Assembly (NCBI GenBank): GCA_031002005.1
Contig: CM061919.1
Location: forward strand, 18,485,687 to 18,549,686
DNA length: 64,000 nucleotides
Reading direction: 5' to 3'
Source: Vandiemenella viatica
Taxonomy: Eukaryota; Arthropoda; Insecta; Orthoptera; Morabidae
The position numbers were made by a program, and so were the translations under genes. This document shows positions 3,666 through 52,942 of this stretch, piece after piece (within the stretch, counting starts at the first letter, position 1; each line of letters starts with the position of its first letter). Below the pieces are notes generated by a model. The model was not told where the DNA came from. It saw only the letters and a program-made list of their open reading frames with translations, and made no database searches.

Positions 3666-3714
3666 TTGTTTGCGTTGTTAATGTATGAATTACGAAGGAA
3701 GGGAGGGGGTGAAC

Positions 3715-6505: not shown

Positions 6506-6552
6506 ACAGAGACCTCCATATCCAACGCGTCTGTAGTCTACACCCGGGAATT

Positions 6553-6843
6553 GTGAAAAGAACATGGTTCCAAAATGTTCGAAGTCCCAGAAAACTATAC
6601 ATTACTATATCTCGATTAAAATTTGGGCATGCACGCTTCAAGAAGCATCTATATAGGATCGGCGTGGTTGACGATGCAAACTGTGAGTGTGGTCAGGAAG
6701 AAGACGTTAACCACATATTCTTTGGATGCCCACTACGAAAAAATATATCCGACAACCTTATCATGAAACTGGTACAGCTGGAACAGCAACTACCAACAAA
6801 TGTTTCAACGCTGTTAGCCACTAACAAATACAAAATTTTCTAG
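6553..6843 (+). pseudogene. LINE polyprotein C-terminus with zinc-knuckle motif
   Basis: An open frame of 96 codons ending in a natural stop. It contains the block RLKFGHARFKKHLYRIGV followed by CECGQEEDVNHIFFGC, that is C-x-C-x7-H-x4-C. That arrangement is found at the extreme C-terminus of several non-LTR clades (I, LOA and R1 groups). The start codon is only the first in-frame ATG, since the real ORF was cut off by 5' truncation. No catalytic domain remains, so it cannot move by itself. The clade assignment is inference. Confidence 0.7.
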
Positions 6844-6879
6844 GCCATGTACTCTTTCCTACAAAAAATCAAGAGGGAA

Positions 6880-7780
6880 TTATAAAAACAGCGTTGTGAA
6901 TAATTGTAACAATCTAACCCTACCGCTATGTTCTATAAAAAACCATATCCTTTAAAGCTGCTATCAAAATGTACACAATGCAGGAGGCAATTTGTCACTG
7001 TAAGTATATAAGAAACTATGTAACTCATCACAGTAAGGTATCCAATCATGTAAATGGATAATGGCTAAATGGCATGCATGGCTGAAATCTGGACTTATAA
7101 AACAGCGGTGCTGATAACTATAACGGACTTCCCCATTACTATGTTTTATGTTTTGTTAAAATTGTAATGTATATATTGTACCCTGTAAAACGGTAATTTA
7201 AATGTACATAATGTAGTAGGCAATTTGTCACTTTAAGTATATAAGGAATTATGTAATTGACCACTGTAATGTATTTAATCATGCAAATGGGTAATGGCTA
7301 AGTGGCCAGCACAGCCGAAACCTGGACTTATAAAAACAGCAATGTTGATAACTGTAACAGACTTATCCTATTAACGTGTCTTATATTGTAGTAAAATTGT
7401 AATGTATATATTCTACTCTGTAAACCCGTCATTTAAATGTATATAAAGTAGTAGGGAATTTGTCATTCTAAGTATATAAGGAACTATGTAACTGACCACT
7501 GTAATGTATTCAATCATGTTCATGGGTATGGACTAAGTGGCCGGCACGGCCCAAATATGGACTTACAAAACAGCGCTGTTGATAACTGCAACAGACTAAT
7601 TCCACCATTACACCTTATAAAAACCTTAATCTATATTTTGTACCTTGTAGACCTGATATTTAAATGTATATAAAGTAGTAGGCAATTTTCATCCTAAATA
7701 CTTAAGGAATTATGAAACGGAGGACAGGAATGTATCTAATCATGTAAATGGATAATGGCTAAATGGCCTGCACGGCTGAA
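6880..7780 (+). repeat. 3' UTR tandem repeats of the LINE, about 232 bp x 4
   Basis: The landmark GGCAATTTGTCA (or a variant) occurs at about 6986, 7219, 7455 and 7681, each followed by AAGTATATAAGGAA and a CATGTAAATGGATAATGGC motif. The last unit is partial and runs into the tail. Units are diverged by point changes, so the array is older than this insertion and probably belongs to the family. Confidence 0.8.
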
Positions 7781-7817
7781 GGCCAAATAAATAAAATAAT
7801 AATAATAACGCGTCTGT

Positions 7818-10553
7818 CTATCGCCGTTCAGTAACTTTTCGAAATTATAAGACAACATTTATTATTTATACAGATAATTTTTCAACCAAATGTCGACAGT
7901 ATTTTTCTCCTTATTTTAAAGGATAAGTGTGCAAAGTTTCATCAAGATCGGATGAAAACTGTGGATTTGTATGAAGAACAAACAAACAAACATACATACA
8001 TTCATCTTTATATATATATAGATGTGAGACCTGATTTCTGAAGTCTTGGCAGCTGGCCGCGAAAGATATGGAGTTAGCGGCATTTAACGACCTCTCTAGT
8101 TGCCGAGGCATCAGTAGTTGTTGGTGCACAGAACGCGTGACGATTTAGTCTGTAGAAGAAACTTTCCCCCTAATGCAAAATTGCGGAATTTTATATAAAA
8201 CGTACTTATGCCTCCCAGCAGTAAAGAAGGTCGTCAAACTGTCGAGTACTTGGAGTGGTTTACCTTGTATAATCCATGCCAGTCATCAGTTGTTCGAGAT
8301 TTCATATTCACATGTTTGAAGAATCTCTCCGTGCAGAGGTTTTAGGCCGTATGGCGTGGTGAGTTGAGCAGCGTTGTAATAGGCCGTATTGTCACTCGTA
8401 AAATTCGGTATTAATTTTTATTTCATTTATTCATTGGCATCCCGAGTTGAGAGTCAGTCTCGGCACAATTTAGTGCAACAACGGAAATGCTATAACTGGA
8501 GGTTTAATTTCACACATTGGTAGCATAGCACATGGTGATAAACTACACATTTATAGGCGTTCTTGTGTAGCACAGTGGAAAGGTCCATTGTAATATTGAT
8601 AAAACAAATCCTTCACCGCTAGTCCATCAATTTGACGTCCGGCGTCTTCTTGTCTCTAATTGGTTGTTTGAGTAATGGCGCGTGTCAAACTAAGGATTGC
8701 AGATCACTCCTAAGTCGATAAAATATTATCCTTTCTTGATTATGGCAGAGACATAGATGAGAGGAAGATGTAGTAACATCTGCAATGCCATTCAAGGCGA
8801 AAAATTTTTCCTAGTCTTCCTTGCCTCGCTGATCAGTTACACCACCAATATAATTTTTTTAGTTGTGTTTAATGCTGTAACGTAATAAGTATGGAAAGTT
8901 GTCAGATCACTGTTTAATGAGAGGTTATTTGAAGATGAGTGTTAGCAACTGTTTCATTTCCTTTTATACGTGTTTGGGATAATTTTGGTCATCTTTGTGA
9001 TTTGTAAACCAATGCAAAATACGAATATTCGGCATTAATGCAAGAAGCATATGTGGCTCAACAGCCTTATAATTGAGAAGCCAACCGGCTTTTACTGGCA
9101 GTATGGAAGATTATAAATCATTTTTAATATCTTGAAAATGGGAGAAGGCGAAGCAATTTCATAAAAAGCGAAGCTTCAGTTGTGAAAACTGCCTCTGCTT
9201 CCTTTCTGTCCTGGCGATCCTTATTATGAGGCATAAATTAGGAGCACTATGTTGTGTCCGCAATTTTCCGTCACGCTGTATCCTGTTTCTCGCTAGTACA
9301 CACTCGCAATAACTCACCGTACAACCTAAGCGGACAGAAATCTTAAAAAATGTTTGCCTCAAGGATCAGTTATGTCCCCATAACTATTTAAATTTTTGAA
9401 TAATTGTCCTTCTTGACACTCCAGTTTTTTCCTGTGCTAACTAAATAAGACAGAACAGCTGCTGAAAAAAATTTATAGAAGATTTGACATGAGATTCCAT
9501 GCTAACCAAAATAAAACGGAGGTGCTTCGTTTTCATGGTGTAAGTGAAGATAAACGTGAGATTTTGTAAGAGAGCTATTCAGCTATTCGTCAAAATTTCA
9601 CTCAGAAGTATTCTGAAATAACCGTGGTCTCAATAGCACTTCTAGCAATGTGTTTATGATTCTTGTCAGAAACTGACGACTCGTAGTAAGATTTTCCTTA
9701 AGCTGGATGTACCCTGCTGGGATCTCTTCAGTCTTGGTGCATCCCATGCAGAGTGCTGTGTGACAGCATGAATCAAGATTCCTCACACTCTACTGAATGT
9801 CAAATGTTAGTTCTAACTTATTTAGATCAACTACCATTTTTTTTTTGGGAAATGTAATAAAAGTATGAGGAATCTTAGACACATATCTGTCTTTAATCAG
9901 TGTAGTCTGAGATCATGTCACCCATCTTTGAGTAATGCAACTGATCGGCTTGCCAGCGGGGTTGAAGTCTGGTGACCGACTGAAAGCAGCAACAGTGGTA
10001 AAAATGTACTGCGTCTTTTAAGGCATAACATTCGTTAATGAATGCCACCAGCAATGCAGGAACTTGACTGCACTCAGCAGAACAGGAACAGGGAAGACGG
10101 GCAGATCGGAAGGACAAGAGGAGAAACCTTCAAATTCAGTGTGTGATATTATCAGAAGATCCAACACATTATCAGTGAATGTTCTAAATGGGTGTATCTC
10201 GACATTCAGTTATGATGAGCGCTTGAACTCCTTCTATCAGGTCAGAATCTTTTTCTAATATTTTTTTGTTATCCATCATCGTTGTTACGTCTATGCTAGC
10301 TAAACGTTAGATAAACATGTCTTCCTGTTTGATTTCGCCGCTATACACGTATTGATTAGAACCTAAGTAAGTATATATTTCAATACAACCGTTGGTATCT
10401 TCTCCTCTGGCAGAAAGTTGGTTTGTCATAAATGCAGCATCCGCTGACCCAAATGCTACCACTGGAAGGGTAATCGGGAGCTGCTGAAGAAGACATAAGA
10501 AAAGAATATGCGGCTGTAAAAGGGATAGGATTTCTGTACATGAGCGCGCTGAC
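7818..10553. other. No gene recognised; presumed intron of the receptor gene (copy 1)
   Basis: AT-rich sequence with only short chance frames. It matches 58110-61157 in copy 2 except for the SINE at 59066. The empty site of that SINE is AGGAAGATGTA at 8762-8772. It lies downstream of a splice donor on the minus strand, so it is probably intronic. Confidence 0.5.
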
Positions 10554-10797
10554 CTGTCTAGCGCTATGGCGACCAGGTGCAGGATGGAGGCCGTGCAGCA
10601 GAGCACGTCGGAGGCGGTCCACATGTCGCAGAGCTCGGGGCCCAGCGTCCATTGAGAGCTGACCTCGTACACAGCTCCCAGGGGCATCACCAGACACGCG
10701 ACCAGCAGGTCGGCCACCGCCAGCGACAGGATCAGGTAGTTGGCCACGTTCTGCAGGTGGCGCTCCAGCAGTATCGCCGCGATCACAAACACGTTCC
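10554..10797 (-). CDS. 5-HT1-like serotonin receptor, internal exon (copy 1)
   Basis: A 244 bp exon of a class A G-protein-coupled receptor, covering the end of TM1 to the start of the DRY motif. The translation shows [20 protein letters not shown], then [18 protein letters not shown] (TM2 with Asp2.50), then WTLGPELCD with the TM3 disulfide cysteine. It continues with WTASDVLCC, which carries the amine-binding Asp3.32, and AIALDR at the exon end. The combination closely resembles insect 5-HT1 receptors; other biogenic-amine receptors are the alternative. The acceptor (TTTGTGTGCAG) and donor (AG/GTCAGC) are in place. The exon enters in phase 1 and leaves in phase 2, splitting the Arg codon of DRY. 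No other exon of the gene is in the window, which fits long introns. Product: plasma-membrane, Gi-type serotonin receptor (family knowledge). Confidence 0.85.
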
Positions 10798-11654
10798 CTG
10801 CACACAAACACCAATCACAATTCTAAAATCTGTCTTTGATTAGATGAGTTCAAAGTAATTCATTTCACTTTTGATCCACGTGATTAGTCAGTACTTGGTT
10901 TCACCATCTGGAAGCAGTTTGGGAGACGTTTGAGTAATACATTTAAGACTAGAACTTTACAATGTTACGACGATTTAATTAGTCAATAATATAAGCTTTT
11001 ACAATTGAAGCGACCGACAACAGCAAAAGTCAATACACAATAATTTGTTTCCAAGATGTATTCAAGGAATCAGAAACTCATTAAGTGCGCAAGATAAGTT
11101 TAGAGATGATGAACGAAGTCTTTATATGAAACGTAAAAAGCGTTGGAAAAGAAATTATGAGTAACTAAATCGCGCGTTGACTTATGGTGACAAATTTACG
11201 GTTTACTCAGCTCTCATTTGAAGTATCTGAACATCATGACTAATCATTTAACCAACTGAAACCAAGCTGAGACCTCGTACCAAAAAAGAAGACTTTTCGC
11301 ATTTTTGTTCCCAATAATGTGAACTGATAGCGTAAGGTGTGTTAGAACACTTTGGATAAATAAATTTCTACAAGTAACTTTTTAAATTAATGTCCTACAG
11401 GAGAGTTCCATGGCTTTTTTTTACTTACAAGAGCCTTGCTATGTGGGAAATTATGCCTGACATTAATAAAGTACGTACGGAGGGTTTGCCACAACCAATT
11501 ATTGTAAAAATTAATATGAGTACAAAGTTACTAATTGTGCTTGAATCAAGTTATTTAAATAATTCCAGATTGTTTTCAGGAATTATAGTTAAGTAGAAAA
11601 ACAGAATCTGTGTAATGATTTCCCCGCACTCGTAGCGTGGTGGGTGAGCGGTAA

Positions 11655-12690
11655 CGCTCTGACTACTATTACTATTACTCCGTGATTCACTACAACTGTG
11701 TGGTGGAGGATGCATTGCACCTATCCGAGATTTTAAGTTTACTCGCCCGGTAAATCCTTTCTATTCCATTCCCTAATCGCTCGTGGAAAAAATGAATACA
11801 GAAAAGAATCGGTTCTGGTACTGATTTCTCTTATCTTATTTTCACGGTCATTCCGAGATACGATGTTACTGGTAGCAATATTTGTTTGCTATCATTCTGA
11901 AATATGTTAGTCGTGAATTTTTCAATTAGCTTCTGTTGAGAGCAACGCCTTCGGTGTTCCAGGTCTTCCCAACCTAACTCCTTCAACATCGCACTTACGC
12001 TTTCCCTCCAACTATATATACCTGTCACGAATCGGGTGGCTCTTCTTTGGACCTTCTCTAATTCCTCCATTAACCCCTTTTGATGGGGACCCCATACAGA
12101 ACAACAATATTCTTAGTGAGGACGCACTAGTGACTTATATGCAATCGATTTAACTTCCAGAGTGCATTGTTTTAAATTACGACCTGGAAATCGGAGCATA
12201 CGATTTGCTTTCCCAATTACATTCTCAATTTGCTCATTCCACGTCAAATTATTACGAATTGTTACCACTAGGTATTTAGCGGAATCTACCGTTCTAAGGA
12301 CTGTACCATTAATTGTATATTCAGAGCTAAATGGTGTCACCTTTTTACTTACACGCATGACTTCGCACTTTTTAGCGTTTAACTCCAACTGCCAGTCTTT
12401 ACACCACGCAATTATTTTCGTAATATCGTTTTGTAACAGAGCGCAGTCTTCCTAGGTTTTGATTTCGCGATAAATAATAGCATCATCGGCAAACAATCTT
12501 TTCATCCCCCTTATTATGTTACACAAATCATTAATCTATATGAGAAACAACAGAGGCCCTATCACGCATCCCTGGGGAACCCCGGACCACACCTCGGTAA
12601 GGGATGAACTCTCACCTTCGAGAACTACACACTGTGTTCTGCCCTTCAGAAAGTCTGCAACCCAGTCGCATATTTGTCAAGATATGCCGT
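11655..12690 (-). pseudogene. CR1-like LINE, 5'-truncated RT fragment (copy 1)
   Basis: Read on the minus strand from 12690 down: CDWVADFLKGRTQ, then SGVPQGCVIGPLLFLI (RT motif B), RLFADDAIIYRE (motif C, FADD), then the thumb region WNEQIENVIGKANRMLRF. Last comes the C-terminal KVQRRATRFVTGIYSW and LKELGWEDLEHRRR. In-frame stops interrupt it (for example after LLFLI and before the C-terminal segment). The 3' end is a TAATAG-type simple repeat near 11660. It resembles the nearly complete CR1 LINE at 31548-35455. Confidence 0.85.
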
Positions 12691-12714
12691 AATATGTAGG
12701 GAAGTTTCGAATAT

Positions 12715-12850
12715 CCACCGGCCATGCAGATTTGGGTTTTCCATGGTTTCCACAAATCGCTCCATGCCATTGCGCCAATCCTTTCCAGCCTCTATTGACT
12801 TCGACGTCACCAAGTCTGAAATACGGAATCATATTGCTGAACTTATTTCC
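12715..12850 (+). repeat. SINE body fragment (copy 1)
   Basis: Contains CAGATTTGGGTTTTCCATGG followed by TTTCCACAAATCGCTCCATG and a CCTTTCCAGCCTC block. These match the body of the full-length SINE at 59066-59323. The tRNA head is missing. It lies directly beside the truncated end of the LINE. Confidence 0.7.
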
Positions 12851-13417
12851 TTCCATGCATTATACCTCAGTGTTTTGTTGTGATTATCTGCACATTTCGA
12901 ATTCCACAAAAATTTTAGTCACCATGTAACTTTGCAATTTTCATCCATCATAGAAAACTACCTCTGTAACGCGTGAGACAGAAAAATGAAAGTTATCTAA
13001 TAAAATACGAAACATTAATAAACACAACGAACAAGTTGTAATTATATAAGCAAGTGATAAAATTAGTAAAATATTCCACTTACTTTCGCGCTGCTTTCAA
13101 CGATGTTCTATTTCGAACGATTCAGCGCCGCAAAAGCAAATGGAATGTTTTACCAACATGATGCGTGCTTAAAGTGTAAAATATTAAATGACATAATTAT
13201 TCCAAACGATCGGTCTGATGTTCTTCTACAAAGAGAGAACGATCTTTACTTTTACAATGATTTGATGCTATGTCATATATACTCCAGTCGCTCTTATCTT
13301 AAGCACATATGCAAATTGTGAGATCGACTATGCAGAGTGCAGTATTCTGTACTCGTATGTGCGCTCGCTCGCGTTGAGGGCCTTGGCCCAAGTATATACC
13401 CTCTTATTCTGGAGGAG
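12851..13417. other. No gene recognised
   Basis: AT-rich sequence present in both blocks (63466-64000). It holds chance frames of about 70 codons with no recognisable motif. Confidence 0.4.
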
Positions 13418-15720
13418 TGGTACTACCATGCTCATATTAATCCGAACGACCTGAATTGCATATCGCTACAATTCCTCCTGGGACTTATTCAACCCATTAT
13501 ACACATCTACCAAGACAGTACTATACCCGGTAGATGGTACATTCACGTTACTATCCAAAATTGAGACTCACCCACCTCACAAAAAAAACGTGACATATTT
13601 TAATATATTCGTTATACAAACGGAAATATGGATTATATTTCGTTAATAAAAGAGTAGTGCAGACATTGAATGCATTTCATTTTAGCTTTTTAAAACATTC
13701 AAGAGAAATTACGTTTCCATACAGAACATAAAAAATTACCGTTTTCAAACAAAAAGTTAATTTTGAACAAACGCTAGGGTCAGAAGAAAGTATGACATTA
13801 CACCGATCATCTGTCACTTAAAATAACTAACTATTAATGATAAAATCAATATTTGCGTGTAAAGATAGTTTTAGGTGAGTGCGTTGACAAATAATTGCAG
13901 CTTTTTGAAGTTAGTTAATTTTGCGGTGTGCTATGAAGACATGTTGTTCTTTTACTACTACATTTAAATTTATTTTAGAAACATATGGAAAAACTTATAA
14001 CTTAATTACTGTTGTCGGTGACATGAGATGTCGTCAACGCAGTCTGAGTTGACAGTATTTTAGCGTCAAAAAACTTATTTTCACCTACCATTTATAACGA
14101 AAGCTGCTTAAGGCGAAATGAAAACTCTTTTTGAAACAAAACAAGATGAGGGTTCAGTAGTTGAAGACACAATTTCGCATAGTGTTGTCACCTTTGTGGT
14201 TTTAGTGGTGTTTCATAAGCAGGCAAAGAACAAAAACTAATACGGCTTTTTCGCTGTAGCAATATTCTGTGGATGGTGCTGTTAAAACTCAAACGACAGG
14301 TGAAACGTTGATTTGATGTCCTTGCCAAAACCGTAATTGGCAAGTATCCAAGGACAGGCACTTAAAACATTTGGTAATTAATGAACTGCTGCGTTTGCTA
14401 GCGGACACGTACGAAATTATTAGTTTATTTCGCGATTTATACGCTTCTTGCTACTTGAAGTTATTATAGTATACCAACTTTTCACTCCATTCTGATGTTA
14501 ATACTACGGTGAACTCTTCCGACAGTAGTCCGTATGGAACCTGTACTGATTTAAGAGGTATAATTGTTACCAGTCAACTGATAACCCAGAAAACAACCAG
14601 ATATTTCACAAGTGCGAAAATTTTAGAAGCTCATACTAATCAATAAAGAATGTCAATGAACAATTGTTTTCATATTTTGTAACTGTTGTTTATGAGACAT
14701 AAAGTTTGGAGGAATACATAGGAAGCTGGCAACAAGGAAACGTAATGCTGGTCAACACGTGTATAAGAGTTGTTGCCCCCTCTACTGCGGTCTTGGTAGG
14801 ACTCATCAACTAGCTCTTATAGGCGTCACGGGCGCCGACCGGGAAGCATGGTGGCTAGCGCTCGGGTAGTTCCTGGAGCAGACGGTTCGAGTCCAGCCTC
14901 GGACATAAGTGATTTTTATGAACTGTTACGTTCTTCTTGTGTTTAATCTACTGTGGATCACCAAAATCACAACATACACCAACTGAGAAGCTAAAATAAT
15001 GGAGAGGATTCACCTATCGATAAACTAATACAAATGCTTTATTGGTTTATTTTTTTACCAATTCAGTCTTTAAATGTTTTTTATGTTCTTGAAATGTCAC
15101 AGGAACGATTATTTACCAAGGATTGGAAAGGAATCCGGCCACGGTATTCAAGTATGAATTAGACCCCTGTTAGCCTAAAATTATTTCGTTAATCCTCTGA
15201 AAACCAAAATATGGATTTTCTTGACCGCGACATACATAAAATTACTGACAAATATACTTGAAAGTGGACAACCAGAATGTCAGTGCTAACAGAACTGGTA
15301 AAAATTTCAACGATTTCATGAAAAGAAGTGCAGCTTCAAAGGCTTACTTTTAACTTAGAAAGACGATCCAAAGTTTCGCTATGATAGGTAGATCAGCAGT
15401 CACTGATTCAGAATGCTATTCATGCATCCTATCAGAAGAAATTGTTCTACTGTCTTCGTTGTATAGGCCTACGTAAGTGACGTTAAAAGCAAAATTGTAG
15501 TCAGAATGGATAATCTTCTTGATCATAAAAATCTAACAATTTCCGTCGAATCACTTAAAACAGTTAATGGTGGTTTGTTACTGCGATCTTAACTGTCTCC
15601 TGTAGCATGCTTAGTAGTGAAAGGAAATTATTGATTGATATTCACCAATCTAATCTATGTATCAACAAATTTGCTGTCATCACAGCTATAGCAGGATGAA
15701 GTTCAAAACTGTGAAGGCAT
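13418..15720 (-). repeat. Long inverted arm A' (copy 1)
   Basis: Inverted, diverged copy of 1038-3419. Together the arms enclose about 10 kb that includes the 5-HT1-like exon. Neither outer end shows a clean short terminal repeat or an obvious target duplication, so this may be a decayed foldback-type element or a separate inverted insertion of the same dispersed repeat. A fragment of about 35 bp from the same arm recurs near 41993-42032. Confidence 0.85.
14820..14905 (+). repeat. tRNA-like SINE segment inside arm A'
   Basis: A stretch with GTGGCTAGCGC followed about 30 bp later by GGTTCGAGTCC resembles box A and box B of a tRNA-derived SINE head. The same segment lies in reverse orientation in arm A near 1828-1900 and in copy 2 near 44105-44180. 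It is not a functional tRNA gene as far as I can see, because no acceptor-stem pairing is evident. Confidence 0.5.
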
Positions 15721-15965: not shown

Positions 15966-16469
15966 CCAACTTGTTCGGTGACAAAACAACTCCAAAATAC
16001 CTTCCCAAAGAAGAAACGGTTATACGTGGATCTCACGTTTCATTAAGCCTGAGTAAAGATCTCAGGTAAGTTATCGAATTAATGAAGCTGTTGAGCCAAA
16101 AAATAGTGTCAAAATACTAAAATACAACAGCGATGAATGAGGACAAATTTTACGTAAGAATCTGCAATAACTTAATATTTCGAATATTGAAAATTATGTG
16201 TCAGCTAAAAATAGACTCTTCGATCAAGGACGATACTGCAAACTGTTTCAAAATTTTATAGTTTAGCGCTGTTATTCTCTGCAGTTGGTTTGTAGAACAG
16301 CAGTTATAGTTGAAGGAGGAAATTGTCAGTTTACGCTGAGCATTTGACTACTCGGAACTTGCTTTCCTTTTAAAACAGAGGGTCTGGCTGGGAGTAATAT
16401 CATAAAGTCTATAAGCTGAGTAATGATAAAAAATCTACATTAGTAGGAAGATAAGGATGGACCTGGGAA
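15966..16469. other. No gene recognised upstream of the micro-exon gene
   Basis: AT-rich and without repeats I can place. It ends where the GC-richer promoter-like block begins. Confidence 0.4.
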
Positions 16470-16887
16470 CAGCCAATCAGCGTCCAGGGATTGCATGACG
16501 TCACGAAGTGAGCAGCCAATGGCGGCCAAGGTCGTATGACGTCACACGTTAGTTCCTCAACCAGCCGCACAGATGGCGACACCGGGTGGGCTTGCGCATA
16601 TGTTAGTTCACCGATCGGCCGCACAGATGGCACCATCTCCCAAGGGCTTAATATCTTTGGGCGCAGATATTCCACACCGCCCACCCAAGCCCTGAGGCAA
16701 TGGCTAGTTTCTGTTCTGGAATGCGCGCGTTGTGAAATGTGTACACTGTTTCAACACACCTACGGAAATTCCCACTCGACTGTTTGCTTTTCCATTAAGC
16801 GTTGCGAAATGTGTACTCTACCAGTTGTGCAAGCGGTATCTCTTGTGTAAGCGCGGAGTGAAATGCTCCATGCGACGCTATAAAAGG
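16470..16887 (+). promoter_or_regulatory. Promoter-like region: two CCAAT-CRE pairs and a TATA box
   Basis: CCAAT boxes at 16473-16477 and 16516-16520 are each followed about 21-23 bp later by a perfect CRE palindrome TGACGTCA (16496-16503 and 16537-16544). Next comes a second duplicated block around CCGCACAGATGGC, then two occurrences of GAAATGTGTAC. A consensus TATAAAAGG is at 16879-16887, about 100 bp before the ATG of the micro-exon gene. Spacing suggests a start site near 16910-16920. Activity is inferred from motifs only. Confidence 0.7.
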
Positions 16888-16985
16888 AGCGCCCGTGGCC
16901 AGCTCTGGCTCTGTACCGTTGCGAACCTTGCCGTGTGCGCTTTTAGCAGTTACCGCAGTGTGTGTTTCTCGCAGTGTTCAACACA

Positions 16986-18160
16986 ATGTCTCAGTCTTAT
17001 GAAGGTAATAAGTTATAATAATAATTATTATATGTGTGTGTTTGTGTGTATGTATCAGTGATACTAAAGATGAATTTTCTTTTACAGAGCTCCCAGTTCT
17101 ATCTGCTGCAGATGTAGAAGAGTACCTCGCAAACAGTAAGCTAATTTCCTTATTGTTAGTAGTATTAGTTTAAATTATTATTATTATTATTAAGACTAAT
17201 TTTTCTTTTTCCTTGTTTCAGATCTACAACAGATCTCACCGTTGTTTAGCGATGATTTAGATAATGGTAAGTTTTTGTATCTAAACTGGAATATTTTTGC
17301 TGTAGATGTTTACTTGTTGCATACTATAATTTATTTTCTATTGTAGAACCACGAGTTGTCTCAACTCCGGAGCTGCTGTTGCTATACACTTTTTCTGGAG
17401 GTATGTATTTGACTGTAATTAATTTTTTTTTAATTTCTCGTGCGTGTGTTGATACTAAGAAAATTAATTTGTTCTGTTGCAGAGCCTGTGAATGCTACTG
17501 ATGGTTCTGGCAATAATTTTGCAAGGGGTAAGTAGTATCTATATATTTCATGCTGTAGCTAATATTCTTGTTTGATTTTTTCTGTAACCAACTAAAAATT
17601 TTTTTCTGTTGTAGCTTCAGCTAGCTGTGTCAATGCATCCTCTGAGCTGGCGAGGTATTTTGCCAATTGTAAGTTAAAAAAAAATTTCTTAACTGAATTA
17701 CTTTAAACATTTTGGCTGTGCAGTAAAAGATGATTTTTTTCCACAGATTGCCCTGAACATGATGATCCCAACCAGCCTGGGGACGTCTTTGTTGGTAAGT
17801 GTTTAGATTTATTTTTATTCAGTTTTTCTTTCTTTTCCTTGTCTAACTAAAATTTATTTTGTTATAGGTCAACATGGTTCCTCGGGACCTCTCAAAAAAA
17901 GGATGAATGATAATGATGATGATGATGAAGGGCCATCTAAAAGGATTAAAATGGCAGGTAAGGTATTTCTTCTACTATTTTTGTTTATTATTTTATCTCT
18001 TAGACTTTTAACCATGAAAAAAAATCAGACTATTTTTTTTGTTGCAGATGTATATATGTCGCCGCCGGACCTGGAAGCGTCGGACGTGCCACAGCCAAGC
18101 ACCAGCGCGTGGGCAGAACCATTGGAGGATGAGCTTCTTGCTACTTTGTCACCGCTTGAA
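16986..18160 (+). CDS. Micro-exon gene, nine exons seen, 3' part lost in gap
   Basis: Exons: 16986-17004, 17088-17135, 17222-17266, 17347-17400, 17483-17527, 17615-17668, 17747-17794, 17868-17957, and 18048 to the gap. All eight introns are 73-90 bp, GT-AG, with pyrimidine tracts, and every junction is phase 1. Internal exons are 48, 45, 54, 45, 54, 48 and 90 bp, all multiples of three, so any exon can be skipped without a frameshift. The joined frame has no stop over about 170 codons. The protein begins MSQSYEELPVLS, has no signal peptide or membrane segment, and is acidic and Ser-rich. Exon 8 has basic clusters (PLKKR, SKRIK) around an Asp run, like a bipartite nuclear signal. Exon 9 is Pro/Ser/Glu-rich. 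Family not recognised. A nuclear regulator or a gene of an unknown mobile or viral-like element are both open. Confidence 0.78.
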
Positions 18161-19160
18161 NNNNNNNNNNNNNNNNNNNNNNNNNNNNNNNNNNNNNNNN
18201 NNNNNNNNNNNNNNNNNNNNNNNNNNNNNNNNNNNNNNNNNNNNNNNNNNNNNNNNNNNNNNNNNNNNNNNNNNNNNNNNNNNNNNNNNNNNNNNNNNNN
18301 NNNNNNNNNNNNNNNNNNNNNNNNNNNNNNNNNNNNNNNNNNNNNNNNNNNNNNNNNNNNNNNNNNNNNNNNNNNNNNNNNNNNNNNNNNNNNNNNNNNN
18401 NNNNNNNNNNNNNNNNNNNNNNNNNNNNNNNNNNNNNNNNNNNNNNNNNNNNNNNNNNNNNNNNNNNNNNNNNNNNNNNNNNNNNNNNNNNNNNNNNNNN
18501 NNNNNNNNNNNNNNNNNNNNNNNNNNNNNNNNNNNNNNNNNNNNNNNNNNNNNNNNNNNNNNNNNNNNNNNNNNNNNNNNNNNNNNNNNNNNNNNNNNNN
18601 NNNNNNNNNNNNNNNNNNNNNNNNNNNNNNNNNNNNNNNNNNNNNNNNNNNNNNNNNNNNNNNNNNNNNNNNNNNNNNNNNNNNNNNNNNNNNNNNNNNN
18701 NNNNNNNNNNNNNNNNNNNNNNNNNNNNNNNNNNNNNNNNNNNNNNNNNNNNNNNNNNNNNNNNNNNNNNNNNNNNNNNNNNNNNNNNNNNNNNNNNNNN
18801 NNNNNNNNNNNNNNNNNNNNNNNNNNNNNNNNNNNNNNNNNNNNNNNNNNNNNNNNNNNNNNNNNNNNNNNNNNNNNNNNNNNNNNNNNNNNNNNNNNNN
18901 NNNNNNNNNNNNNNNNNNNNNNNNNNNNNNNNNNNNNNNNNNNNNNNNNNNNNNNNNNNNNNNNNNNNNNNNNNNNNNNNNNNNNNNNNNNNNNNNNNNN
19001 NNNNNNNNNNNNNNNNNNNNNNNNNNNNNNNNNNNNNNNNNNNNNNNNNNNNNNNNNNNNNNNNNNNNNNNNNNNNNNNNNNNNNNNNNNNNNNNNNNNN
19101 NNNNNNNNNNNNNNNNNNNNNNNNNNNNNNNNNNNNNNNNNNNNNNNNNNNNNNNNNNNN
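18161..19160. other. Assembly gap, exactly 1000 N
   Basis: A run of 1000 N interrupts exon 9 of the micro-exon gene. The round length suggests a placeholder, so the true distance, order and even orientation of the sequence after it are not established. Confidence 0.97.
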
Positions 19161-19169
19161 GTTATTTTT

Positions 19170-19441
19170 TCTTATTTTATTTTCAGATTTTTTATATTAC
19201 ATTAATGTGTGGAACTTTTCCATATCAGTTTAATCTCTTGAGGCTTTACACCCACTGTAAAAATATGTATTTTGTGTATAGCAGGGAACTGCCAGTCTCT
19301 GAAAATCTAAAAAGCAATTTGGTATTTATCAGGCATCTTTTAACCTCTGTTTGGAATCTTGATGTTGGGTCAGACTTGAGTTTGACTATATTGTTATTGT
19401 GTTTGTGTAATCTGCATTCTGTATTAGTACTAATGAGTTAC
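19170..19441 (+). repeat. Inverted repeat beside the gap, left arm
   Basis: Pairs with the reverse complement of 19622-19919 with indels; loop about 180 bp. Shared blocks include CCATATCAGTTTA, CTCTTGAGG, CCAGTCTCTGAAAA, GGGTCAGACTTGAGTTT and GTAATCTGCATTCTGTATTA. Confidence 0.82.
19187..19233 (+). CDS. Possible terminal exon of the micro-exon gene
   Basis: After the gap, a polypyrimidine tract and TTTTCAG acceptor end at 19186. Read in phase 1, like every upstream junction, the next bases encode FLYYINVWNFSISV and a TAA at 19231-19233. The AT after the acceptor matches the start of exons 3, 7 and 9. The exon sits inside the left arm of an inverted repeat. Linkage to the upstream exons across the gap is inference, and the evidence is only the acceptor and the phase. 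Confidence 0.4.
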
Positions 19442-19621
19442 CTTTGTCTGCTGTGGTAATCACAATATCCTAGTTGTTTAATTTTCTTTTTAATAGGTTT
19501 ACACTGTTTCTTTGTGTGTGTTTCGGATTGAAGAGATGTGATTTAGCACTTTTGAAAATCAATTCCCTTGCAAGCTTTTCCTCCGTTTTCTTTTTGTGCA
19601 AGAATGTGTTCTGTGTTCTTC

Positions 19622-19919
19622 GATTATAACACAATAGTACTAATACAGAATGCAGATTACTTAAGTAAAACAGAAGATTTCATACAGAATAACAAAGTAG
19701 TTAAACTCAAGTCTGACCCCACATCAAGCTTCCAAACAGCGGTTAAAAAGATGCCTGACTAACACCAAATTGCTTTTCAGAGACTGGTATATCCCCTGCA
19801 ATATACATAATACCTAATTGTACAGTCGGTAAAAAAACCTCAAGAGGATAAACTGATATGGAACATTTCGACACATCAATGTAATATACACAAATTGTAA
19901 GAAAAATAAGCTGAAAATT
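19622..19919 (-). repeat. Inverted repeat beside the gap, right arm
   Basis: Diverged inverted copy of 19170-19441. Where the left arm has the splice acceptor TTTTCAG, this arm reads CTTACAA on the minus strand, so the acceptor is lost. A SINE starts immediately after the arm at 19930. A transcript crossing both arms could fold into a long hairpin. Confidence 0.82.
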
Positions 19920-19929
19920 ACAGTTAATA

Positions 19930-20131
19930 GCAGGCCTCGATATCGTAGGGGCTAGAGTGATAGAGCTCCGAAGGTCGCCGGTTCGAGTCCGGCCGAGGGC
20001 ATGGGTGTTTAGTGTTGTGTCTGTGAATGTCTTGTCCGTGTTGTAGTGTCCTTGTGTCAATACTTGATAGCAACAAATCACATTGAGCTGGCTGTATGGC
20101 CCAGAAGCCGAAAGCCATTAAAAAAATAAAA
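19930..20131 (+). mobile_element. tRNA-derived SINE with 10 bp target duplication
   Basis: The head reads CCTCGATATCGTAGGGGCTAG and the box B is GGTTCGAGTCC at about 19979-19989. The end is an A-rich AAAAAAATAAAA tail. The flanking direct repeat ACAGTTAATA is at 19920-19929 and 20132-20141. It is a different SINE family from 59066-59323, with a GGGCATGGGTGTTTAGTGTT body. A similar piece occurs near 48730-48790. Confidence 0.85.
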
Positions 20132-20417
20132 ACAGTTAATAACAGATTTATACCTTCATTTAGATAAACATTATGTTAATCATCAGAACTGAGACATAAC
20201 TTGTTTTAGGGCACTGATGATGGTCTAATAAACCTAAAACATATGCCATAACGAAGTTTTAATTGTTAGCTACACTAGACGGATAACAAAAACCCAGCAT
20301 AGTATAGCAGCTGGGGATAACGGCCTAAGAGTTCAAACTGTTAAATAGGTAATGAAGACAGCGTTGCATGCTGGCTATATCTCCACATTTTGTACCTGAG
20401 TATTTTGGCTGTGGCAG

Positions 20418-21008
20418 GTGATGGTGACATGTCGGCGTAATCCGTGCCAGGATTCCATGGATGTATACTGGCGGCCCACTGGGGAGTGCGTGATGGTCTA
20501 CAACACAGGCAGGTTGTGTGGTGGCAGCGGCACAGTGCTGCGGTATAACGCACGCGGCCGCTCCGTGTGTGGCTGCCACAATGACTACGCGCTGATTGGT
20601 GGTCGCTGCTGGCTGAAGCTGCACCGCGGTCCCTGCGCTGAGGGTGAGACAGTCAGCCTCGAGGGATCGTGCCAAGCAGACTCGTGTAGAGACCTCAACG
20701 CCGCTTCCCCCGACACCGGCTCGACCTACGTGTCTTATAAGGGACGGTGCATGGGACTGTGGCAAGAATGCGACGACAACGTGGACACTGTATACTCGAA
20801 CCGACGGATCCTACAGTTCTCTGATGGCTGGCTGTACTGCGACTATATAACAGAACATGTGATTTCCGATGCACCCTACTTGTGCCTGCAGGACAACGAC
20901 GGAGGTTGCATCTTAAGGGCACAACCAAAGGAGTTCTCAAAGAGACTGTTAATGTCATCCGGACGGCAGAGGCATTTGAATTACTGGATGGAGGCAACAG
21001 GCGAATAG
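20418..21008 (+). CDS. Terminal exon of a cysteine-rich, DUF4789-like protein
   Basis: An acceptor GGCTGTGGCAG ends at 20417 and a frame of 196 codons runs to TAG at 21006-21008. Cys-rich blocks include VTCRRNPC, then YWRPTGECVMVYNTGRLCGG, CGCHNDYALIGGRCW and HRGPCAEGE. Further on are CQADSCRDLN, KGRCMGLWQECDD and LYCDY. The spacing of the first half (a CY/CV-type block, then a GPC block, then a C-x-C loop) resembles the insect DUF4789 family of secreted, disulfide-rich proteins of unknown function. The frame is intact and GC-richer than its surroundings, so it is probably a live host exon. There is no signal peptide at its start, so at least one upstream exon must exist; I see none between the gap and 20417. 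Entry phase 0 is assumed. Confidence 0.7.
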   Translation: MMVTCRRNPCQDSMDVYWRPTGECVMVYNTGRLCGGSGTVLRYNARGRSVCGCHNDYALIGGRCWLKLHRGPCAEGETVSLEGSCQADSCRDLNAASPDTGSTYVSYKGRCMGLWQECDDNVDTVYSNRRILQFSDGWLYCDYITEHVISDAPYLCLQDNDGGCILRAQPKEFSKRLLMSSGRQRHLNYWMEATGE

Positions 21009-23685: not shown

Positions 23686-24036
23686 ATGTCGTCCGCTCCT
23701 TGCATTGAGCTTATTTCAAACTTCCGAGGAAGCGAGTACACAAATGCAATCCATGCCTTCCCACTTGAACGGTGGGAAGCTCGTCTTGCGCCTGGCAACG
23801 CTGTTTGGGAGGTATTCGTCAGTGTCAAGTTGGGCGAAGCTATATACAAATGGCGAATACCAACCGACAGCTTCAGCAGTTTTAAGCAAACTTTGACAGA
23901 CCCATTTATGGTGCCAAGCATGCTGACGCGTCAGCTACTGACGCCAAGCATAGAGACGCACGTATCACGTGCCCTCTTATTTTTGCGGAGGGCTTTACTG
24001 AAGCTTCCTACCTCCAAGAAGCCACGCAGCGTCTGA
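23686..24036 (+). pseudogene. Upstream gag reading frame (N-terminal part)
   Basis: Starts MSSAPCIELISNFRGSEY and ends in TGA at 24034-24036, overlapping the ATG of the next frame as TGATG. The downstream frame stays open upstream of its ATG and encodes plausible protein (RITCPLIFAEGF, TEASYLQEATQRL). I therefore think a frameshift near 23900 split a single gag gene, rather than there being two true genes. Translational coupling at TGATG is the alternative. No family recognised for this N-terminal piece. Confidence 0.5.
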
Positions 24037-25160
24037 TGTCACCTGCTTCCCCAACATCAGAGCGCTCAGCGGAACCGGCAGATGGCAGCACTGGCCAAAC
24101 CAACGACGGCAAGAGCGACAGCTCCGTTGACTGCAGCGACGGAGAGGAGCCCACCGTCGAGGGCCCAGTGCAGCAGCTGGTCGTCTACACTACCAGCAAC
24201 ATCGACGCCCTGTCCCTTAAAATTTGGGAAGAAACAGAACTAGCAATCTACACCTGGCCTGTCGCTGGCGGGCTTTTGGTCAGCTGCTCGTGCCCCTCTG
24301 ACTACGCCGTGGTCACCAAACTGCTGGAAAGCAGAGATCTACGCTTTGCCATCAAGCAAGCTGGCAAACCACGTCGCCTGGTAGTCCGTGGACTGCCAGA
24401 AACCACCACTAGCGAGGAAGTCACCAAGGGCTTCGCGGAGCTCGGAGTTGCCGTGCGGGATGTGAACCCCATGGTGAAGCCGGGCACCGAGGAGCGACTG
24501 CCCCTCGTAGCCTTCACGGCGGACCCGCCAGCCACTGCGGCCCTCCAGGTGAAGACGCTACTCGGCACGGAAGTACGTGTCGAGCCCAAGAAGCGCCCAC
24601 CTGCTGCACTGCAGCAATGCTTTCGCTGCCAAAGATTCTCTCACCAGGCGAAAGACTGCAAATCGGCGGAACGTTGTGTTCGTTGTGGGAGGGAACACAG
24701 CGTTAAAAAATGCAGCCTTCCTCGAGATGCAACACCAACGTGCGCCAACTGCGGGGAAGCGCATTCCAGCGCATACGCCGGCTGCAAAGCAAGACGAAAC
24801 CTGCGAAAGCAGGCAGCCAAGCAACGACGGCTCCGTACGCAGTCCGCTACGGTCCCTGGGTCAGCAGCGCCAGACGGGAAGAGGCGCGCGCAGCGCCCTC
24901 CCCACCACCGCACCACGGACGACAGCGCTACCAACACCAGGCAGCGCGCGCAGCGGCACCCCCACCACAGCGCCCGGCCCAGCTCGCATACGGACCAGGG
25001 CGCTCCCAGCAGAAGCAGAGCGGTCACAGGCCGCAGCGGACGCTCGCCGCCACGGCGGGCTCCCAGCCAAGCTACAGGCGGCCATGCAGCCGTCCTTCAA
25101 GAACTTGTACGAGCTGTGTCACACCTGACGCAGCTGGTGGCCAACATCAAGCCGTATTAG
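24036..25160 (+). CDS. Gag-like nucleic-acid-binding protein of a non-LTR element
   Basis: A frame of 374 codons. The N-terminal third is acidic and Ser-rich. The middle (LRFAIKQAGKPRRLVVRGLP to about residue 180) resembles the PRE_C2HC region of jockey-type ORF1. Around residues 190-240 come three zinc knuckles: CFRCQRFSHQAKDC, CVRCGREHSVKKC and CANCGEAHSSAYAGC. The C-terminus is Arg/Pro/Ser/His-rich, as in RNA-packaging proteins. Role by family: coats the element RNA. No stop interrupts it. Codon use is GC-rich, unlike the AT-rich surroundings. Confidence 0.8.
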   Translation: MSPASPTSERSAEPADGSTGQTNDGKSDSSVDCSDGEEPTVEGPVQQLVVYTTSNIDALSLKIWEETELAIYTWPVAGGLLVSCSCPSDYAVVTKLLESRDLRFAIKQAGKPRRLVVRGLPETTTSEEVTKGFAELGVAVRDVNPMVKPGTEERLPLVAFTADPPATAALQVKTLLGTEVRVEPKKRPPAALQQCFRCQRFSHQAKDCKSAERCVRCGREHSVKKCSLPRDATPTCANCGEAHSSAYAGCKARRNLRKQAAKQRRLRTQSATVPGSAAPDGKRRAQRPPHHRTTDDSATNTRQRAQRHPHHSARPSSHTDQGAPSRSRAVTGRSGRSPPRRAPSQATGGHAAVLQELVRAVSHLTQLVANIKPY

Positions 25161-25616
25161 ATCCTCACCGCCTCCCCTACTGGACCCGAGCCTAGCCCGA
25201 CCTTCGCCAAATTAATTTCCATCAAATTAAGCAAAAGGACGGAGGGGCAGGAAATGCCCAAAGCGTCCAGTGTCACCACGGCTCGCCGTGGGGGCACAAA
25301 CCTCCAGTCGACGACGACACTCATCATCACTACTAGAGAGGAACTAGATGCTCTTTAACGACGCATGCAGTTTTCACTTTGAGCTTGTGTTCTTTGATCG
25401 CCGCTTTTGTGTTTTCGCTCGCAGCGTGCGGCAGTCTGGATTTCTCGCTGTAGGGTCCCTCCCTGCCCGAGTTAGTAGGGAATTACCGCCACACGGCCCT
25501 CTCCCGCTGGGAGAGGAACCCCCTGGCGTGAGTTTTAGGGTTGTCACTGGTCCTTGGAACCTAGCGGTGATAACACGGGGCCAGTACAACACTCCCGCTA
25601 GGTACCAGCAGCAACA

Positions 25617-27227
25617 ATGGACAACAATGGTGATGTTCTTCAATCTTCTGCAGACGCTCCTGCACATCCCACCTCACCGGAAGCCACCTCTTCCTCACAG
25701 ATAGCTGAGCTGACTATCATAGCAGAAGACCAAGTCAATGTACCAACTCTGCAGCTTGCAGAAAATGAAAAAATGGACACAACTCAGTTTGATTCAAGTA
25801 TGCTTGCAATCTTAGAGGATCATGGATCTCGAGCCTCCAAGAGAAGCATCACACCACCAGCAGGAGGAAAAGCTAAGCTCTTTAGAAAGGAACAAAGAGC
25901 TCTCAACAACAATGCCAACAATACAGGAGTCAGTGTTCCAGCATCAAAGTTCACCCTGGCACACAGAGACAAAAGAACTGCCAAAAAGGGAGCCCAAACT
26001 GCACTATCAGGTAGTGGCAAAAAGAATTTTTCCCAAAATAACCGCAACGCAAAGAGGGTTCTGGCTCAGCCCGACGGAGAAGGCTTTGTGCTGGCTGATC
26101 GTACCAGTAAGCCCCCACCATCCCTAGATCCAGCCTCCATAGAGGTTAGCAACTCGTTTGACCTACTAACCCAGGATGAACCCACAGAAGAGCAACAGCA
26201 GCAGCAGCAGCAATGCCAGCATCAACACCAACAGCTGCAGCAACAACAACAGCAGCAACCCATTAACCGACCAGCACATGCAAAATCACAGCTTCCACCT
26301 ATAGTGGTCCAGTACCCAACCACCTATAAGGATCTGTACCAGCTGATTAAAAGGGTACTACAGGAACACCCGTTCCAAGTAAAGACAGCTGGAGGGGACA
26401 AGGTCAAGCTCACCCTCAACTCCACGTCCGACTACCTGGAGGTCACCGCAGCATTACAACGGAAAGGAATACCATACTACACCTTTCCTTCTGCTGCAGA
26501 AAAGTTGCTGAAGGCCGTAATTCGAGGGATGCCGTCAAACATGCCTACCTCTGACATCAAGGAGGAACTTGAAGAACTTGGCCTAGATATCCGCTCGGTC
26601 AGCCAGCTCAAGAGGCCCGGGAGCTCCGACCCCATGCCACTATTCCTGGTGGTCCTACCAGACAGGCCCCAGAATAAAGGGATATTTCAAATGGACAACT
26701 TAATGTCCCTAAAAATCTCAGTGGAGAAACTGAGAGCATCAAATGGCCCAGTGCAGTGCTACAACTGCCAGTCTCTAGGGCACGTTGCTAAACACTGCAG
26801 CATGGCACCTAAATGTGTGAAATGCGCTGGCGCACATCTTTCCAATGATTGCGCACTCAAAAAAGGAGAGGGCAGCCCAAAGTGTGCCAACTGCAACGGC
26901 CAACACGTGGCCAGCTACAAAGGATGTGAAGCCTACAAGCGTGCCCGCGCCCGCCAACGGGACGCAGCTGCAGAACAGGCCGCTGCAGCTCAGAAGAAAC
27001 GTGAAGAAACGCAGCAGGACAGCGGCGCGCCGAAGAAACTACTACCGGCCAAACCACGCTACAACAGATCGCGCAAACCAAACCGCCACAGGGCAATAAG
27101 CCCACTCAACCCAAGCGCACCGAGGCTCCAAAACGCCAGCTCCAAGGGATCAAGACCCAAGGCCCCAGCAAGAAGAAGAACACCAACGCAAACCAGAAAA
27201 GCAAGACAACCTCCTACGCGGAAGTAA
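25617..27227 (+). CDS. Jockey-like ORF1 (gag), 3' end frameshifted
   Basis: A frame of 536 codons starting MDNNGDVLQSS. It has a Gln-rich run at about residues 190-215 and a PRE_C2HC-like region (RGMPSNMPTSDIKEELEELG) at about 300-380. Knuckles CYNCQSLGHVAKHC, CVKCAGAHLSNDC and CANCNGQHVASYKGC lie at about 380-440, then a Lys/Arg-rich tail. Downstream, other frames still encode a typical gag end (ERLLDIVGTLLTMLTTLIAK), so the present stop is premature and the original ORF ran to about 27510. Role by family: RNA-binding coat and targeting. Confidence 0.82.
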   Translation: MDNNGDVLQSSADAPAHPTSPEATSSSQIAELTIIAEDQVNVPTLQLAENEKMDTTQFDSSMLAILEDHGSRASKRSITPPAGGKAKLFRKEQRALNNNANNTGVSVPASKFTLAHRDKRTAKKGAQTALSGSGKKNFSQNNRNAKRVLAQPDGEGFVLADRTSKPPPSLDPASIEVSNSFDLLTQDEPTEEQQQQQQQCQHQHQQLQQQQQQQPINRPAHAKSQLPPIVVQYPTTYKDLYQLIKRVLQEHPFQVKTAGGDKVKLTLNSTSDYLEVTAALQRKGIPYYTFPSAAEKLLKAVIRGMPSNMPTSDIKEELEELGLDIRSVSQLKRPGSSDPMPLFLVVLPDRPQNKGIFQMDNLMSLKISVEKLRASNGPVQCYNCQSLGHVAKHCSMAPKCVKCAGAHLSNDCALKKGEGSPKCANCNGQHVASYKGCEAYKRARARQRDAAAEQAAAAQKKREETQQDSGAPKKLLPAKPRYNRSRKPNRHRAISPLNPSAPRLQNASSKGSRPKAPARRRTPTQTRKARQPPTRK

Positions 27228-27449
27228 CTACTGGTCAAGCCCAGGCACCAAGAGAACCAAACCAGTCAAGGGAGACTCGACCACACAGCCAGGACATTGC
27301 CACCACCTACCTAATCAACATCCCGCGCAGAACAATGGCACAGGTGGAATGGAACGCCTACTAGACATAGTGGGAACTCTCCTTACAATGCTGACTACGC
27401 TGATTGCCAAGTTTGACCAACTCACAACGGACATCAAATCCGCGGTAAT

Positions 27450-28160
27450 GACGGCACACAGAGCCGATCCCTCACAGAATGCTCCAACCCAATCATGGAC
27501 AGAGTCCGCATAGAGGGACTAACCTCTCTGCGTATGGAATGCAGACGGCATTCATCAACAACTAGGTGAGTTTCGGCAGTTTCTTGCGGGATGAGAACAT
27601 CGACATCTGTCTGGTAGCCGAAACCCACCTCAAACCTGGCCTCAGGGCAAATGTAGCCAACTATCAATGTTACCGCTGGGATAGACCAACCGCGGGTGGT
27701 GGAGTGGCTATTTACGTGAAAAGAGGGATACCACATCACGAAATCCACACCCCTCCTATGCAGCTACTAGAGTCCACTGCAATTGAAATAGCGACCACCA
27801 CGGGGCCCGTAACCATAATTGCAGTATACAGACCACCTAGAAGAACACCTTTCGAAGATGACTTCCGGCAATTACTCAATATCAGGGTAAACTCCTGATC
27901 GGAGGGATCTCAACGCCAAGCATCCCACCTGGAATTCGCGCATCACCAACGCGGATGGCAACCAATTATACCGGCTGTGCATCCGACACAATCTGCAGAC
28001 CTGGGGGCCGGATGAACCAACCCATCACCCGTGGAGCGGAAATCGCCCTGACGTTCTGGACATGGCCATAACTCGAGGTATCAACGGACTCGTAGCTGCA
28101 CGAACGATGAACTACCTCTCTTCAGACCACTCACCAGTCTTAATAGGACATTGACATCGG
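27450..28160 (+). pseudogene. Jockey-like endonuclease domain, frameshifted
   Basis: Pieces in different frames together cover the AP-type endonuclease: NADGIHQQLGEFRQF, ENIDICLVAETHLKPG (catalytic Glu), VTIIAVYRPPRR, then NAKHPTWNSRITNADGNQL and SSDHSPVLIG (catalytic Asp-His). At least two frameshifts are needed, near 27575 and 27885. The readable part at 27566-27898 is one frame of this. Function by family: nicks the target DNA for priming. Confidence 0.78.
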
Positions 28161-28598
28161 CCAGTGGACACCAGCTACACCAAATCAGCCAAACTACAAT
28201 AGAACAAATTGGGAGCGGTTCCGCGAAGAGGTCACCGAATGTCTCCAACACCTGCAGCCTATTGAAGACAGAAGAATTGAGAATGCCATAAAACAATTCT
28301 CCACATCAATAGTTGACGCAGCTAATTCAAACACGCCACCACCAGCAACAAGGCCACAGTCAAGGCAACTCCCACCACAACTTCTCGCACAGATCCGGCA
28401 TAAGAACAGAGTGGCCAAGGAATGGCGTCAAACCAGCCACCCGGAAACTAGACGTCTGTTAAATCGCCTGCAGCGCGAACTAAAGCGGACCTACAGGCAC
28501 ACCGTAACAGGGAGTGGGAAGCACGCCTAGCCACACTCAATGTAAGCGATGGAAATCTCTAGTCAGCAACCAGACACTTCACCAAACGACGCAAGCGT

Positions 28599-35455: not shown

Positions 35456-35462
35456 TAAATGA

Positions 35463-48135: not shown

Positions 48136-48139
48136 AATA

Positions 48140-50359: not shown

Positions 50360-50361
<2 letters not shown>

Positions 50362-52940: not shown

Positions 52941-52942
52941 TC

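Follow-up and report, generated by a model that had tools for sequence, protein, structure and literature searches.

A micro-exon gene of Vandiemenella viatica as the predicted start of a Polinton/Maverick polymerase gene with a variable array of tandem exons

Results

Micro-exon architecture of the gene

The DNA analyzed here, referred to as the window, is a 64,000-nt stretch of the genome of the orthopteran insect Vandiemenella viatica (GenBank assembly GCA_031002005.1, contig CM061919.1, positions 18,485,687 to 18,549,686 of the forward strand). From position 16986 on its plus strand it carries a gene of nine exons and eight GT-AG introns, which, judging from related copies elsewhere in the genome, would encode the N-terminal part of the DNA polymerase of a Polinton/Maverick transposon. 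Every intron is in phase 1, and the introns measure 83, 86, 80, 82, 87, 78, 73 and 90 nt in order. The seven internal exons are 45–90 nt long, each is divisible by three, and the joined frame extends over 172 residues without a stop codon up to a run of N (Table 1). An initial annotation of the window had described eight phase-1 GT-AG introns of 73–90 bp, which proved exact, and seven such internal exons in an open frame, which we reproduced. Its further statement that any exon could be skipped in frame was borne out in silico, since the frame stays open in all 128 of the 128 ways of combining the seven internal exons.

The splice chain was scored with a generic donor/acceptor chain, with no fitting to this gene. 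The score was 35.05, with eight introns in phase 1, and the best score in 200 dinucleotide shuffles of the region was 8.55, with at most three introns. Of the 294 tile-strand combinations scored over the whole window, the three highest overlapped the gene and the next best scored 5.55. The GC content is 0.47 in the exons versus 0.24 in the introns, and a branch-point-like word, ACTAA, is located 17–24 nt before the 3′ end in five of the eight introns. The row of micro-exons is confirmed as a real gene structure.

No hydrophobic N-terminus was found in the visible protein, in agreement with the absence of a signal peptide noted previously, and two of its 172 residues are cysteines. Basic and acidic tracts are present, consistent with the nuclear-looking character that had been ascribed to it. 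Upstream of the gene, the sequence TATAAAAG is found at 16879, about 100 nt before the ATG at 16986, and the region further upstream contains TGACGTCA at 16496 and 16537 and CCAAT at 16473 and 16516.

Copies of the gene lead into a polymerase frame

The initial annotation had proposed a search for paralogues. When the exons were compared with the 3.72-Gb genome of the species itself (150 candidates scored of 1485 at first look), we obtained 197 matches at E values up to 0.001, the window's own exons included. The exon 9 peptide is 83–98% identical in the listed matches and lies inside open frames, the longest of 1134 residues. In one locus (L009; L numbers denote loci fetched from the genome), exon 9 leads directly, within a single unaltered copy, into a frame of 1133 residues (about 3.4 kb) that matches the DNA_pol_B_2 profile with an E value of 2.8e-23. 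The profile (PF03175) scored above its cut-off in all five frames tested from L009–L011, the others being one from L010 (6.8e-18), two copies in L011 (2e-12 and 2.2e-12) and a second, partial frame in L009 (6.4e-8); in L009, exon 9 and the polymerase domain share one frame. The L009 polymerase frame also gave a weak, sub-threshold Endonuclease_7-like match. In a genome search with DNA_pol_B_2, 91 of 1591 candidates were scored, and every one of the 91 resulting matches exceeded the cut-off; 0 of 14 control genomes gave a signal. From these sequences, the micro-exon gene is predicted to be the N-terminal part of a protein-primed DNA polymerase in a multicopy Polinton/Maverick. The gene end previously placed at 18160 is the start of the N run, the proposed likeness to secreted effector genes gives way to this polymerase assignment, and the tiny introns, which had seemed out of place in this genome, fit a mobile-element origin.

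Direct homology searches gave no result with the protein database, with PDB, PHROGs and IMG/VR, with Pfam on the micro-exon protein or with Rfam on the window. A control for the protein database search, an insect-type DUF4789 exon, was likewise unmatched, and the protein-database negatives therefore carry little weight.

Ends, other genes and insertion sites of the element

The left end of the window copy, which starts with AGTAGG at 16442, had 41 matches, the window itself included, at 90–100% identity (40 scored of 2833 first-look candidates). In three of the three copies checked, we found 5′-AGTAGG ends, inverted repeats and 6-bp target duplications: L014 has inverted repeats of 131 bp (97%) and the duplication AGCTGC, L020 has inverted repeats of 274 bp (98%) and the duplication CACGAC, and a third copy, 15,926 bp long, begins with AGTAGG in L065 and has its right end in L061, with matching ends and CATGTC on both sides. 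The 15,926-bp copy contains polymerase (pPolB), integrase-like, phospholipase A2-like (E value 6.2e-7) and double-jelly-roll frames, the last a capsid match to PF21738 DJR-like_dom with an E value of 7.3e-104 (L061:2463-3359). No Pfam match to an adenovirus-type protease or packaging ATPase was found in the 14 frames scanned (four in L018, three in L020 and seven in L061), which are part of all frames and of which one overlaps the polymerase. Of four further frames, one in L017 and three in L064, two matched reverse transcriptase, one matched RNase H and one had no match. In addition, 27 AGTAGG ends were located 468–1209 nt upstream of start codons of the MSQ type described below. They carry 26 distinct 6-base flanks, and the insertions are therefore mostly independent. 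Taken together, the element is, from its sequence, assigned to the Polinton/Maverick group.

Runs of exactly 1000 N, like the one in the window, are found in eight of the 12 other copies that were read as 9–10 kb stretches from L009–L020 (L012–L017, L019 and L020); they are either assembly gaps or withheld stretches. A scan around the window gene for inverted ends with duplications, made within the window, gave 0 matches.

Many of the polymerase copies lie in convergent (tail-to-tail) pairs a few kb apart, for example in L006, L009 and L011. We counted 13 such pairs by eye among the 91 DNA_pol_B_2 matches, and the arms of the L009 pair, 1679 bp long, are 99.8–100% identical. A target duplication was shared within none of three palindromic pairs (L050/L057, L038/L036 and L047/L046). 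One idea is that the pairs are a snap-back product of protein-primed replication.

The number of tandem exon units varies between copies

We passed 64 arrays through the splice-chain search, namely that of the window and 63 from 60 loci, and 33 of them yielded a chain without a break between exons 1 and 9. These complete arrays contain, between exons 4 and 6, one (9 arrays), two (8), three (7), four (2) or five (7) units of the exon 5 type. Each unit is a symmetric phase-1 cassette of 45 or 69 nt together with its intron, so that it encodes 15 residues (79 units) or 23 residues (10 units); units of 21 residues (63 nt) are listed in incomplete arrays only (L018, L024, L040 and L058), and mixed-unit arrays occur in L053 and L060. 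The 33 complete arrays include 31 distinct peptide arrays. The 5′ part exists in two versions, beginning MSQSYE and MEHSQSAS, each with its own exons 2 and 3. Exon 8 ranges from 84 to 99 nt among the complete arrays of the MSQ type, and the 48-nt exon 6 of other copies resembles a fusion of a unit with exon 6.

Adjacent units within one array, introns included, are up to 99–100% identical, and the mean unit identity is 0.956 within arrays versus 0.937 between them. In the most direct comparison, L013 and L031 are identical at 780 of 780 aligned flanking bases (gap columns excluded) and have five and three units, respectively, and their second units differ in sequence. This comparison indicates that unit number can change faster than bases. 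The identical five-unit array is also found at sites with different flanks (L013, L022 and L033). Whole exon-plus-intron units differ in number between genomic copies while the frame is kept, and the cassette idea holds at the level of DNA evolution. From the window copy alone, the case for exon duplication was weak. Pairwise scores were unconvincing, and a separate test gave p 0.28 for the peptide sum of exons 2–7, 0.006 for exon DNA and 0.009 for exons 2 and 6, uncorrected over many tests; the question was settled only by the other copies.

Constraint on the exons

Substitutions were counted as shortest-tree changes in the 27 complete arrays of the MSQ type, with exons taken by position. The counts are small, and the neutral expectation for the nonsynonymous:synonymous ratio is 1.9–3.3. 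We obtained 1:10 for the first 36 codons of exon 9, 0:3 for exon 2, 2:5 for exon 3, and 1:3 and 2:3 for the 54-nt and 48-nt forms of exon 6. The counts were 5:1 for exon 4, 5:2 for exon 7, 16:6 for exon 8 (9 of the 27 arrays, one length) and 21:8 for the units. Exons 2, 3 and 6 pooled (5:14) differ from the units (21:8; Fisher p 0.003). By these counts, exon 9 and part of the array appear constrained, the units appear to evolve near neutrality, and exons 4, 7 and 8 probably do so too. Divergence is low in both exons and introns, at 0.4–2.7% in four exon-intron pairs over the 27 arrays, and the sampled copies look young.

Two earlier counts were dropped. A nonsynonymous excess in the 45-nt units (19555:2388 in pairwise comparison) and a count of 0 nonsynonymous changes in exon 2 and the 48-nt exon 6 were both biased because exons had been chosen by peptide; the pairs in the former were also non-independent. 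We make no claim of positive selection.

Features of the locus and its surroundings

Table 1. Coordinates of the element in the window.
Feature	Position	Strand
TACATT six-base flank, expected left target-site duplication; right partner not found in window	16436..16441	
Polinton left end (5′-AGTAGGAAGATAAGG), promoter and 5′ untranslated region	16442..16985	+
Exon 1, coding part, 19 nt; ATG at 16986; phase 1 at its end	16986..17004	+
Exon 2, 48 nt, phase 1-1	17088..17135	+
Exon 3, 45 nt	17222..17266	+
Exon 4, 54 nt; precedes the variable array	17347..17400	+
Exon 5, 45 nt; variable tandem unit (EPVNATDGSGNNFAR), single in the window copy	17483..17527	+
Exon 6, 54 nt	17615..17668	+
Exon 7, 48 nt	17747..17794	+
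Exon 8, 90 nt; acidic tract and bipartite nuclear localisation signal (NLS)-like stretch KKRMNDNDDDDEGPSKRIK	17868..17957	+
Exon 9, start, visible as far as the N run	18048..18160	+
Exactly 1000 N, hiding the remainder of the polymerase frame	18161..19160	

Right behind the N run there is an inverted repeat (19171-19440/19627-19910) with 76% identity overall and 82–94% in ungapped segments, which was not found in the loci fetched; the stretch 19161-19937 is CpG-poor (observed/expected ratio 0.29). A transfer RNA-like short interspersed element follows at 19938-20125, with ACAGTTAATA flanking both sides (by eye). At 20418-21008, behind the Polinton and on the same strand, we found a single cysteine-rich exon with a DUF4789 match under the cut-off (E value 0.00015). 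It is probably a separate host gene, because the AG at 20416-20417 gives phase 0 (by eye). Two elements of the long interspersed type with open frames occupy 24036-30188 (Pfam PRE_C2HC/zf-CCHC and RVT_1) and 31621-35507 (judged from frames only).

The window also contains a segmental duplication of 97–99% identity, which involves 1-13423 and 42298-64000, continues into L066 and stops at 13423, short of the Polinton. A 7tm_1 receptor exon is duplicated with it (10307-10814 and 60911-61418, minus strand). An insertion of 9.4 kb at 47034-56424 has inverted ends of 2.57 kb (98.3% identical) and a 6-bp duplication, TGTACA, and its empty site is seen at 4856-4861 in the duplicate copy of the region. 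The ends of this insertion (GTCGGGGACAG) are unlike those of the Polinton.

Discussion

Weighing the polymerase reading

We consider it very probable that the window gene is the start of a Polinton/Maverick polymerase gene with a real splice chain, in which the number of units varies in frame between copies. Several observations nevertheless weigh against this reading. In the window copy itself, the polymerase region is masked by the 1000 N, the DNA that follows these N shows no match to any fetched locus, and the right end was not found within the window. The integrase match in the 15,926-bp copy (PF00665 rve, E value 1.2e-6) reaches 29.2 bits, below the curated 32.6, and comes from one partial frame in L018. 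The loci were not a random sample, since they comprise the eight best matches, 12 loci chosen because of their long frames or their position, and the next 40 in the list. Incomplete arrays make up 31 of the 64, as a result of fetch-limit cuts, stops or frameshifts; the chain search admits only exons divisible by three, so that a complete array is necessarily open, and in some of them one or two exons rely on unusual sites (e.g. L021, L045 and L060). Splicing of the array is itself predicted from sequence, and the NLS in exon 8 is presumed from a reading of the consensus by eye. With regard to constraint, exons 4 and 7 appear unconstrained, and when they are pooled with exons 2, 3 and 6 the comparison with the units becomes 15:17 versus 21:8 and loses significance (p 0.07). 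The units have a neutral ratio (2.6 versus 2.8), which means relaxed constraint and not positive selection, and in the four exon-intron pairs exon divergence is not steadily below intron divergence.

Alternative explanations

It is unlikely that one copy makes several polymerase N-termini by alternative cassette splicing, such as forms that include or lack the NLS exon 8. In favour of such splicing, all internal exons are symmetric, every skip form is open and the NLS-like stretch is confined to one exon. However, unit duplication already explains the symmetry, and splicing of short introns (here 73–90 nt) by intron definition favours constitutive removal. Moreover, of the eight introns only intron 8 combines an open frame with a length divisible by three, and 0.24 such introns are expected by chance.

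That the differences in unit number are assembly artefacts, with a 130-bp tandem repeat collapsed or expanded where the natural array is constant, is very improbable. Such repeats can be mis-assembled, and 1000-N runs lie inside eight of the 12 copies read out at length, but the units within an array differ in sequence and order, three unit lengths (45, 63 and 69 nt) and mixed arrays exist, and the same five-unit array recurs at the differently flanked places L013, L022 and L033.

There is hardly any room left for a lineage-specific host micro-exon gene of the aphid bicycle or schistosome micro-exon gene (MEG) type, whose alternative splicing would diversify a protein that is secreted or injected. 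In the window gene, internal exons begin at the second codon position, as is stated for bicycle genes in the available part of PMC9168663, all 128 skip forms are open, and the published bicycle classifier gives the visible part a score of 0.81 against a cut-off of 0.72. This score, however, falls to 0.16 when the last exon is extended by 300 nt and to less than 0.0002 at 1000 nt, and the L009 frame behind exon 9 measures about 3.4 kb. The many dispersed copies, the transposon ends with target duplications in the three checked, the distinct flanks at nearly every end located (26 at 27), the beginning of a viral-type DNA polymerase in exon 9 and the lack of a hydrophobic N-terminus likewise speak against a host effector gene, which we regard as refuted at this locus by the multicopy matches, the polymerase frame and the transposon ends. 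A CpG observed/expected ratio of 0.57 (rank 8 of 304 tiles) had been considered as a sign of host-gene body methylation; it is weak and no longer needed. Exon sizes of 45, 54 and 90 nt recall fibrillar collagen, which is ruled out by the missing Gly-X-Y repeat in the peptides and the presence of 48-nt exons.

Proposed mechanism and significance

If the gene is the start of a Polinton/Maverick polymerase gene, its array would gain and lose entire exon-plus-intron units, each about 130 bp long, through duplication and deletion. Because each unit consists of a phase-1 exon and a complete intron, any number of units would keep the frame, and changes in length would therefore cost the element little. 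The introns would be retained because the element replicates via DNA and never via spliced RNA. Splicing of the array would be mostly constitutive, and the spliced transcript would encode a polymerase whose N-terminal extension is acidic and probably unfolded, with its NLS carried by exon 8. The repeats may serve as a linker or as a repeated docking site of adjustable length.

A bolder proposal, which we think has a rather small chance of being right, is that the array is a diversity-generating module whose units multiply and are exchanged at a higher rate than bases are substituted, and that the N-terminal region could be the missing terminal protein, with its priming or docking sites set by the exon count. 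Each unit would then add an acidic, mostly serine-bearing segment of 15–23 residues to the N-terminus of the polymerase. The words SGND and SDNN in the units recall the NSGD motif reported around the priming serine of the adenovirus preterminal protein. The array also has a bearing on where in Polintons the terminal protein that primes their replication is located.

If the predicted splicing is true, a virus-like DNA element carries a variable-number tandem-exon array in its replication gene, which would allow quick changes in protein length without breaking the frame and would give a clear reason for the single shared intron phase. The 33 complete arrays with one to five units, together with many more genomic copies, form a natural experiment on the origin of micro-exon arrays, which for bicycle genes and MEGs must be inferred from older events. 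The case is also a caution that classifiers of micro-exon genes can pick up transposon genes.

Comparison with known systems

Schistosome MEGs are described, in the available part of PMC10526429, as having short exons mostly divisible by three. The window gene shares this property. It differs in that MEGs have long introns (0.1–5 kb), mostly 15-nt exons and signal peptides, whereas here the introns are 73–90 nt, the internal exons are 45–90 nt and the protein has no hydrophobic N-terminus. According to the accessible text of PMC9168663, the internal exons of bicycle genes are small and numerous, and almost all of them begin at codon position 2. The megacycle gene among them has an internal tandem duplication, and some members lack the CYC motif. 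Both the many micro-exons and the start at codon position 2 are seen in the window gene, but bicycle genes are host genes for salivary proteins, many of them with signal sequences and CYC motifs, and the gene described here belongs to a transposon polymerase without a hydrophobic N-terminus.

The adenovirus E2B genes encode the DNA polymerase and the preterminal protein; replication is protein-primed, and a short leader exon supplies the start codon. We know of no tandem array of symmetric micro-exons and no variation in exon copy number there. The likeness to our element is that of a nuclear DNA virus with a protein-primed polymerase and spliced E2 mRNAs; the available portion of PMC7851563 reports spliced mRNAs from the E2 region.

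Polintons have 5′-AG ends and 6-bp target duplications. Their group hallmarks, as given in the part of PMC6431247 that was available, are PolB, an integrase and jelly-roll capsids. The element described here resembles Polintons/Mavericks in its 5′-AG termini, inverted repeats, 6-bp duplication, double-jelly-roll capsid and polymerase. The term “intron” is absent from the available text of PMC4028283 and occurs once in that of PMC6431247, in a reference title, and no published Polinton with a variable micro-exon array was found in the open-licence literature, where only part of the search was aimed at Polintons. Since these two texts, in their available parts, show no intron for Polintons, we take the variable micro-exon array to be new for the group. 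The initial annotation had named a known transposon or viral gene with the same exon pattern as one contrary outcome; the gene did turn out to be of transposon or viral type, and no previously known gene sharing its pattern of exons was found. What sets this element apart from known Polintons is that its polymerase gene is predicted to open with a spliceosomal array of phase-1 micro-exons in which the number of tandem units varies.
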